Source of the DNA: a virus
DNA length: 41,434 nt
IMG/VR virus record: IMGVR_UViG_3300019458_000059
Coordinates: 1 to 41,434 of that record
Strand: one strand, 5' to 3'
The first letter of the stretch is position 1. The number at the start of each line of letters is the position of its first letter. The position numbers and the translations under genes are program-made. Below the pieces are notes generated by a model. It was not told the origin of the DNA. It did not search any database and saw only the letters and a list, made by a program, of their open reading frames with translations. Shown here piece by piece: positions 9,803 through 10,980 of this stretch.

Positions 9803-9929
9803 GCAGTGCGTAGAGTGCGGCTCACGCCAGAAGCTTGCCCCATACCGCAAGCGTGGTTGGCGGGTCGAATATGTCTGTCCGCAGCATTACTATCAGGAAT
9901 TCTTCCTCAAGAAATTGAAACATGAGTGA
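9771..9929 (+). CDS. Zinc-ribbon mini-protein, 52 aa
   Basis: Begins MLKFLLTMLRKQCVECGS; a CVEC pair and a later CPQH form a plausible zinc site. The basic Lys/Arg content suggests nucleic-acid binding. It overlaps the preceding gene by 32 bases and the following HNH gene by ATG/TGA. Confidence 0.6.
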   Translation: MLKFLLTMLRKQCVECGSRQKLAPYRKRGWRVEYVCPQHYYQEFFLKKLKHE

Positions 9930-10173
9930 TTATCCCAAGCGTGGTAGTCGTGAAGCTCATCGCACTGCGGCAGAGACCAAGCTCGGCAGACCGTTGCGCA
10001 AGGATGAAGATGTCCATCACCGCGATGACGACAAGAAGAACTTCGACCCTGCGAACCTGGATGTCATGAAGCATGGTGAGCATTCTCGACTGACAGCCAG
10101 CAAAGAACGGAAGGCATTTGCCGAGTTGGCGGCTTCATTGCGCATGTTCCGAGAGAAGAAGAAGCTCTACTGA
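9922..10173 (+). CDS. Small HNH endonuclease-like protein, 83 aa
   Basis: The core reads DVHHRDDDKKNFDPANLDV, then KHGEHSRL, the HNH_3-type pattern (His-His-x-Asp ... Asn ... Pro-x-Asn-Leu ... His-x-x-His). It lacks any long recognition domain, so it may nick DNA with help from a partner, or act in packaging as small HNH proteins of HK97-like phages do (known for that family, inferred here). Coupled to neighbours by overlaps at both ends. Confidence 0.8.
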   Translation: MSDYPKRGSREAHRTAAETKLGRPLRKDEDVHHRDDDKKNFDPANLDVMKHGEHSRLTASKERKAFAELAASLRMFREKKKLY

Positions 10174-10427
10174 TGAATACCAATCTTCCGTCTGAGGACA
10201 AGGTTCGCGAGTTGGCAATGGTCATCTATGATTCTCTGCTGAATCAGGGATATGATTTAACCGCTGCCGAATTACTGTCAGCTCTATTCACAGCTACTAG
10301 CTCCTGTGCTCAAGTAGTGCTCGACATGCCCCAGCCCGAAGAGCACAGAATGCTCAATCGCATGAAGATTATCGAGTCGCTTCAGAGCATTGTCGACAAG
10401 CTCAAAAGCGGCGAAATTATTCATTAA
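10173..10427 (+). CDS. Hypothetical helical protein, 84 aa
   Basis: Not recognised. Mostly helical, acidic, no Cys motif apart from SSCAQ. The ATG overlaps the HNH stop (TGATG). Its TAA is immediately followed by the first base of the tRNA-like gene, so its mRNA must be cut at the stop codon when the tRNA is processed. Confidence 0.65.
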   Translation: MNTNLPSEDKVRELAMVIYDSLLNQGYDLTAAELLSALFTATSSCAQVVLDMPQPEEHRMLNRMKIIESLQSIVDKLKSGEIIH

Positions 10428-10502
10428 GCCGGGGTAGTTCAAGTCCTAGAACCCTGTTTTGTGAACAGGAACGTGCTGGCTGGAGGCCAGCCCCCGGCTC
10501 CA
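10428..10502 (+). tRNA. tRNA-Thr(UGU)-like gene with altered D- and T-loops
   Basis: 75 bases, folding as a full cloverleaf: acceptor GCCGGGG/CCCCGGC, U8-A9, D-stem GTTC/GAAC, anticodon stem CCTGT/ACAGG with loop TTTGTGA (anticodon TGT), variable loop AACGT, T-stem GCTGG/CCAGC, discriminator T, encoded CCA. Acceptor, discriminator and anticodon loop resemble bacterial tRNA-Thr(UGU). Odd points: position 26 is missing, base 37 is G, the D-loop is AAGTCCTA (CC where GG is expected at 18-19), and the T-loop is CTGGAGG instead of TTCRANY. C19-G56 replaces G19-C56, while U8-A14, A15-U48 and A58 are kept. Standard covariance searches may score it poorly. It could be functional, a decoy or decaying. 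Confidence 0.75.
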
Positions 10503-10509
10503 AATTGAC

Positions 10510-10734
10510 ATGAAACGCTGTCGTATTCACCCGTGGTATCAAGTCCGACAGCGTCCTACTCTACGCTGTTCTTTCTGCTGGCAGCTCTGGCGTGCGAGAC
10601 TCCGATGGATACTGCGAAACCGCTCTGGACGGACCTGGATAGAGAGTTTCACTCCTATTACGTCCTGTTCATCCTGCACGATTGCAAGGCCCCCTGCGTC
10701 GACGAAGACTGGGAGCGATTCTATTCGGAGCTGA
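10510..10734 (+). CDS. Putative small zinc-finger protein, 74 aa
   Basis: The first 30 residues (MKRCRIHPWYQVRQRP, then CSFCWQLWRAR) look like a genuine small phage zinc finger with C-x-H and CSFC pairs. The rest is Ser/Arg-rich and less convincing, and another frame (10605-10823) looks real over the same bases. A frameshift joining the two is possible. Confidence 0.4.
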   Translation: MKRCRIHPWYQVRQRPTLRCSFCWQLWRARLRWILRNRSGRTWIESFTPITSCSSCTIARPPASTKTGSDSIRS

Positions 10735-10823
10735 GGAATCCCCACTGTATTCATGGTCGAATTCGCAAGGGGTGCTATCAGTGCATCCCTCCTACTACCT
10801 GGTCAACAAGCTTTCCTAGATAA
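10605..10823 (+). CDS. Putative acidic protein with Cys cluster, 72 aa, overlapping frame
   Basis: Frame +1 to the preceding ORF. From MDTAKPLWTDLDREF onward it has natural-looking composition and ends with CIHGRIRKGCYQCIPP, a possible zinc site. The start is uncertain: the frame is open back to 10533 and no good Shine-Dalgarno precedes 10605. Either an overlapping gene or the true 3' half of the 10510 gene. Confidence 0.4.
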   Translation: MDTAKPLWTDLDREFHSYYVLFILHDCKAPCVDEDWERFYSELRNPHCIHGRIRKGCYQCIPPTTWSTSFPR

Positions 10824-10906
10824 AAAATTTCTGGCAGGACCGGGACTGGATTAAAAAATCCTGGCTCTGATCCTGATATAAAAAAATTCTGGCTCGTGGA
10901 CCGCTT
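10819..10906. repeat. Three A-tract/TCTGGC direct repeats
   Basis: Three near-copies of an A6-7 tract followed by T(T/C)CTGGC at about 10820, 10850 and 10879, about 30 bases apart. Phased A-tracts can bend DNA. It lies just after the last rightward gene of this unit. A binding array, packaging or replication site is possible; function unknown. Confidence 0.5.
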
Positions 10907-10980
10907 CGCGCCCCGCCCCCATCCCAATCTCCGAGGGGGTCCGGGGGTGTAAGGCTTTGTGCTGCAAAGTGTTACTCGCT

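Follow-up and report, generated by a model that had tools for sequence, protein, structure and literature searches.

The window, a 41.4-kb IMG/VR phage contig, carries terminase, portal and major head protein genes in its left, minus-strand arm and DNA polymerase and helicase/primase genes in its right arm. At 10428–10502 on the plus strand lies a tRNA-Thr(UGU)-like gene, encoded CCA included, that was identified by ARAGORN, by a phage tRNA covariance model and by a cloverleaf scan. It begins on the base after the stop codon of an 84-aa ORF (10173–10427, +), which is itself preceded by an HNH endonuclease gene (9922–10173, +; Pfam HNH_3, E 2.7e-10). G006, the relative whose DNA polymerase is closest (61% identity), has a tRNA-Pro immediately after its HNH homologue and a tRNA-His about 340 bases further on, both with normal elbows. 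No tRNA occupies the same site in the other relatives examined. Since tRNA-Pro and tRNA-His are found there in one relative and no tRNA in the others, the HNH-adjacent position is a site at which tRNAs are acquired.

No homologue of the window tRNA was found among the related phages, and BLAST searches of the region or of the tRNA against phages and plasmids returned none. Scans of viral contigs for exact patterns from the D-, anticodon and T-arms of the window tRNA retrieved unrelated sequence only, while an 18-mer of the tRNA had a single match in bacterial genomes, in Robertmurraya and outside a tRNA context. A host search through TerL in genome contigs gave no match.

Downstream of the tRNA, the stretch at 10510–10823 opens with the start of a small zinc-ribbon-like protein (MKRCRIHPWYQ...CSFCWQLW) that matches a relative over 27 residues only. 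Beyond these residues the likely coding frame changes, as in a frame-shifted gene or two overlapping genes. At 10830–10960, an A/T-rich stretch is followed by a GC-rich string ending CTCCGAGGGGGTCC; the relatives L040, L046, L047 and L065 have a similar element at this position, which is perhaps a terminator or a genome-end signal.

The 75 bases of the tRNA form acceptor, D, anticodon and T stems of 7, 4, 5 and 5 pairs, and all 21 of these 21 pairs are Watson-Crick. The 5' acceptor strand (GCCGGGG, 10428–10434), which carries G1-C72, C2-G71, G4-C69 and G5-C68 and pairs with 10492–10498, is joined by UA to the D-arm (GUUC AAGUCCUA GAAC, 10437–10452), where C18 is 10445 and C19 is 10446; base 26 is absent after 10452. 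The anticodon arm (CCUGU UUUGUGA ACAGG, 10453–10469) presents UGU at 10460–10462 and G37 at 10463, and after AACGU comes the T-arm (GCUGG CUGGAGG CCAGC, 10475–10491), with C54 at 10480, U55 at 10481, G56 at 10482, G57 at 10483, A58 at 10484 and G60 at 10486. The gene ends, all on the plus strand, with the 3' acceptor strand CCCCGGC, the discriminator U73 (10499) and CCA (10500–10502), the three together spanning 10492–10502.

Several near-invariant features are retained, namely U8, A14, A15, A21, U33, U48, G53, U55, A58, C61 and the encoded CCA. Others are altered (G18>C, G19>C, U54>C, C56>G, Y60>G), besides the loss of base 26, and the canonical elbow contacts G18-U55, G19-C56 and U54-A58 are replaced by C18-U55, C19-G56 and C54-A58. 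Of these, G19-C56 is in tRNAs generally the most conserved long-range pair and keeps the elbow of the L-shaped molecule together. With the register set without the T-loop, D-arm positions 18/19 were read as CC in six of seven votes. Sequence and geometry are thus as the earlier note had described them, from the intact pairs, CC at 18–19, G56 and C54 to the missing base 26 and the CCA. The window tRNA also has G37, whereas every other tRNA-Thr(UGU) found in this analysis has A37. Because C54-G60 and U55.G59 can extend the T-stem in an alternative pairing of the T-arm, the modelled 7-nt T-loop is not certain. Two further strings may be coincidences: D-arm positions 10437–10446 hold a perfect T-arm consensus string (GUUCAAGUCC), and T-loop positions 10482–10486 read GGAGG, a Shine-Dalgarno-like motif 23 bases 5' of the next AUG.

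ARAGORN calls the gene at 10428–10502 as tRNA-Thr(UGU). The Rfam model RF00005 gave no match to it even at E ≤ 10, and its gathering cut-off of 29 bits was not reached. A covariance model built from 31 tRNAs of related phage contigs, however, matched the window tRNA over its full length with 39.3 bits (E 4.9e-11, filters off). In the cloverleaf scan the gene reached the maximum score of 42, the best of 160 dinucleotide shuffles of the window scoring no more than 38, and its fold z-score against shuffles was −3.4. A chance origin of the cloverleaf is rejected.

The determinants of threonine identity in bacteria are G1-C72, C2-G71, G4-C69, G5-C68, G35 and U36 (PMC9976931, Table 1), and the window tRNA has the complete set, G35 and U36 included. 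Like other UGU isoacceptors it has U at position 34, and its U73 is common to most of the other phage tRNA-Thr(UGU) found in this analysis. When it was aligned globally with 223 other phage tRNAs, it matched best a tRNA-Thr(UGU) at L272:8299-8375 and a tRNA-Thr(CGU) at L272:7233-7307, both on a 358-kb jumbo phage contig and both sharing the GCCGG acceptor start and U73 with the window. Canonical phage and bacterial tRNA-Thr(UGU), of which L272:8299-8375 is an example, have in common with the window tRNA the GCCGG- acceptor, the threonine identity pairs, U73, the UGU anticodon and the cloverleaf geometry; they differ in having G18G19, U54U55C56, A37 and base 26, where the window tRNA shows C18C19, C54U55G56 and G37 and lacks base 26.

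Relative to L272:8299, the closer of the two, pairs 6-67, 11-24, 31-39, 50-64 and 51-63 are changed on both sides and 49-65 has gone from G.U to G-C, with no stem pair broken. Broken stems and free drift at paired sites, the signs of a pseudogene, were not found. Five two-sided changes without a broken pair indicate that the fold was under selection at some stage of the lineage of this tRNA; since no homologue was found in the related phages, selection on the window tRNA itself is something that we infer through a more distant tRNA-Thr. Compensation for codon usage is not supported as its role, since the major genes of the window use ACA less than any other threonine codon. A reading of the gene as a histidine tRNA through a shifted anticodon loop was rejected, because it would break the anticodon stem.

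The earlier note had argued that C19-G56 is a compensatory swap, of a kind not favoured by mere decay. From the window sequence alone this argument is weak, given that positions 19 and 56 pair in 25% of shuffles that keep the loop compositions and that the complementarity between D-loop and T-loop is equalled in 22% of shuffles. The claim gains its support from comparative data, as C19-G56, U19-A56 and A19-U56 occur in other phage tRNAs and five stem pairs are compensated with none broken. In a simulation of neutral, uniform decay, all stems stayed intact in only 6 of 10,000 runs that lost five near-invariant loop sites (P = 6e-4), a value subject to ascertainment, as the window tRNA was noticed for its intact stems. 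Plain decay is unlikely in view of the five compensated and unbroken stem pairs and of the threonine identity pairs, G35 and U36, all of which are kept. Two other origins were considered and rejected. An attP-type tRNA fragment does not agree with a complete gene that has a non-canonical T-arm, and an inversion of loops between stem repeats does not agree with D- and T-loops that give no canonical loop when reverse-complemented.

For comparison, phage tRNAs were collected from 80 terminase-related loci, from pattern scans for variant D-loops, from the whole arrays of 12 phage records and from a cloverleaf scan that ignores loop sequence. The resulting curated table holds 203 phage tRNAs, the window left out; as the set is enriched for unusual D-loops and large tRNA arrays, its frequencies are not population estimates. 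At 19-56 it contains GC in 193 tRNAs, CG in five, and UA, AU, UC, UU and GU in one each, so that a non-G base at 19 mostly goes with the complementary base at 56. At 18-55 the counts are GU 182, AG 15, GC 3, CU 2 and UG 1, and at 54-58 they are UA 189, AU 8, GG 4 and CA 2. When the 3' letters were permuted within each record, the observed mutual information was reached in none of 20,000 shuffles for each of the three position pairs, although related tRNAs are not independent of one another.

An automatic covariance-model alignment showed little 19-56 covariation, with one doubly changed cell. As variant D-loops are mis-registered in that alignment, we also used the curated register and a blind one, in which positions 18/19 were transferred from the seven most similar normal D-arms and the T-loop was ignored. 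The blind register upholds C19-G56 in L211 Leu(UAA), L211 Glu(UUC), L278 Gly(UCC), a doubtful L212 element and the window, and it keeps U19-A56 in L210 Arg and A19-U56 in L267 Arg. Two further tRNAs, L278:6295 and L278:4889, have C19-G56 in the curated table and are undecided in the blind register.

In L211:6587- Leu, L211:947- Glu, L278:10142 Gly, L210:115- Arg and L267:469 Arg, positions 19 and 56 are exchanged as a pair with the stems intact, as in the window. These variants mostly keep G18-U55 and U54-A58, and C18C19 is confined to the window and the doubtful L212 element. Among the phage tRNAs compared, the combination of C18, C19, C54 and G56 occurs in the window tRNA only. For C54/A58 there are two counted precedents (L100:2037, L269:2382) and one uncounted (L211:1181), and for C18/U55 no certain precedent was found among the surveyed phage tRNAs. 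The comparison indicates that matched exchange of elbow pairs is a feature of phage tRNAs and that C19-G56 of the window has precedents. Because the same kind of matched change occurs in other phage tRNAs, the window elbow is probably a genuine variant in design, as opposed to damage in a broken gene.

The survey brought up other unusual elbows. A18 with G55, G19-C56 being kept, is present in fifteen phage tRNAs from at least eight records (Trp, Gly, Phe, Met, Leu, Ala and others), namely L069:6919, 8480 and 8560, L085:16243, L100:2037, L079:12563, L147:2130, L276:2160, L277:1204, L278:5352 and, in L150, the loci at 179, 1362, 1690, 2268 and 3160; its presence in five divergent Met(CAU) tRNAs indicates that this variant is conserved. 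The reverse-Hoogsteen pair U54-A58 is replaced by A54-U58 in eight tRNAs (L150:179; L199:7731 and 12309; L268:292; L267:1173; L278:4602; L269:4005; L275:11526), and G54 with G58 is found in four or five others (L079, L277:1204, L278:5352, L211:947, L211:1534). L211 (IMGVR_UViG_3300035180_001825), a small phage contig with many tRNAs, has perfect stems and very odd T-loops at 3805-, 1534-, 947- and 6360-; ARAGORN misses these odd-T-loop tRNAs, one of which has the anticodon CUA and could be an amber suppressor. The tRNA-like element at L212:2271-2361 combines C18C19, G56 and A54/U58 with a perfect acceptor and ACCA. Its anticodon arm is enlarged to 33 nt, which is odd, and a mismatch closes the T-loop, leaving the T-stem imperfect and the element therefore doubtful.

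Taken together, we favour, with somewhat more confidence than doubt, a working phage tRNA-Thr(UGU) with a rewired elbow, docking through C19-G56. In such a molecule, the D- and T-loops would still dock, with C19-G56 replacing G19-C56 as the outer elbow pair of the L-shape, C18/U55 would take the place of G18/U55, and C54/A58 that of U54/A58. Both ends would be processed, and the host ThrRS would charge the tRNA through the intact acceptor pairs and G35/U36; processing and charging are to be expected because the cloverleaf, the threonine identity pairs, the anticodon and the CCA are kept, and we infer expression and an L fold along with charging. In E. coli, selection for suppressor tRNAs has produced functional molecules in which T-loop and elbow pairs are altered.

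The earlier note had also expected altered modification by the host, which fits the loss of U54; the loss of Psi55 is only a guess, U55 being kept. The loss of A37 fits altered modification as well. With neither m5U54 nor t6A possible, as U54 and A37 are lost, decoding of ACA would be poorer than by a normal tRNA-Thr, going by what is established about these modifications, and the removal of the t6A site by G37 suggests weak decoding.

A decaying tRNA-Thr pseudogene, in which the elbow was lost recently and the stems are still intact by luck or because it took just one or two events to replace the loops, is the alternative to be weighed first, and we consider it rather unlikely. The gene is a singleton that has lost five near-invariant loop sites, base 26 and A37, U55 is left without a partner purine at 18, the Rfam tRNA model rejects it, the small downstream ORF at 10510 looks frame-shifted against its homologue, and some other variant phage tRNAs are uncompensated at 19-56. 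Set against this are the 21 intact pairs, improbable under the simulated uniform decay, the five compensated and unbroken stem pairs relative to the nearest sister, and a 19-56 pair that is complementary, as in other variant phage tRNAs.

A charged, non-translating tRNA or decoy, which the altered elbow and G37 would exclude from the ribosome, is improbable in our judgement, and so is its supposed task of titrating a host enzyme (ThrRS, a tRNA-targeting nuclease or a modification enzyme) or of giving threonine elsewhere. Full threonine acceptor identity, an altered ribosome-facing elbow and the missing t6A site would suit it, and there is a known analogue in a staphylococcal tRNA-Gly that is charged yet diverted to the cell wall (PMC4052509). 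However, no partner gene or acceptor pathway was found in the window, and many other phage elbow variants sit in ordinary tRNA arrays with diverse anticodons, which looks like decoding and unlike use as a decoy. As to the EF-Tu binding pairs, the window T-stem has G-C at 49-65 and U-A at 51-63, the weak staphylococcal set being A49-U65 and A51-U63 (PMC4052509), and 49-65 does not appear to be of that weak type. That the locus is no tRNA at all, being instead a chance cloverleaf, an assembly artefact or a cluster of cis-acting RNA hairpins, might be argued from the single metagenomic contig, the lack of a second copy and the silence of Rfam, and is very improbable given a score far beyond shuffles, the match to the phage tRNA model, the encoded CCA and the kinship with tRNA-Thr in acceptor, anticodon arm and discriminator.

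The interpretation in the earlier note is partly supported: the elbow is likely to be a compensated variant, and the suggested role in escape or as a decoy is conjectural. The window tRNA would be one of a loosely defined group of phage tRNAs in which tertiary elbow pairs have been swapped in matched steps. Our guess at the selective reason is poor legibility to host enzymes that read the canonical elbow, such as modification enzymes and tRNA-targeting defences, with relaxed constraint as the plain alternative. More tentatively, and with doubt prevailing, phage tRNAs may share an alternative, internally consistent elbow code (C19-G56, U19-A56 or A19-U56; A18-G55; A54-U58 or G54-G58), of which the window tRNA would be an extreme member, that leaves them ribosome-competent and poorly recognised by host factors reading the canonical elbow, be these modification enzymes, tRNA-targeting defence nucleases or surveillance.

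If natural tRNAs exchange their elbow pairs in matched fashion, the elbow would prove to be a module that can be replaced, and such tRNAs would be ready material for telling enzymes that read base identity from those that read shape only. They would also suggest a second route, besides anticodon-loop mutation, for phage tRNAs to avoid the defences with which hosts target tRNAs. A share of phage tRNAs is also overlooked by standard tRNA finders, and the wider pattern of elbow exchange deserves a systematic survey. In the open-access literature, to which our search was confined, we found no description of phage tRNAs with compensated elbow changes and no paper that connects the elbow of phage tRNAs with evasion.

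Few tertiary contacts of tRNA are as strongly conserved as G19-C56 and its neighbours, which the ribosome and many enzymes touch (PMC4810234). Some known systems are comparable to the window tRNA in part. Phage tRNAs with mutations in the anticodon loop evade anticodon nucleases (PMC10264068), and the window tRNA is likewise phage-borne and altered at sites that host enzymes could read; the changes described there are in the anticodon loop, with D-loop, T-loop and elbow unmentioned. The non-proteinogenic staphylococcal tRNA-Gly, in which G18G19 is replaced by UU or CU and which is charged and kept out of translation (PMC4052509), resembles the window tRNA in having G18G19 replaced and the acceptor identity kept. 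Unlike the window tRNA, it is not phage-borne, it carries glycine, and no complementary 19-56 replacement is described for it there. In metazoan mitochondria, tRNAs without a canonical elbow have co-evolved with altered parts of the ribosome and RNase P (PMC4810234). The window tRNA has similarly lost the canonical docking bases of the D- and T-loops, but its partners should be ordinary bacterial ones, and it has a replacement pair.
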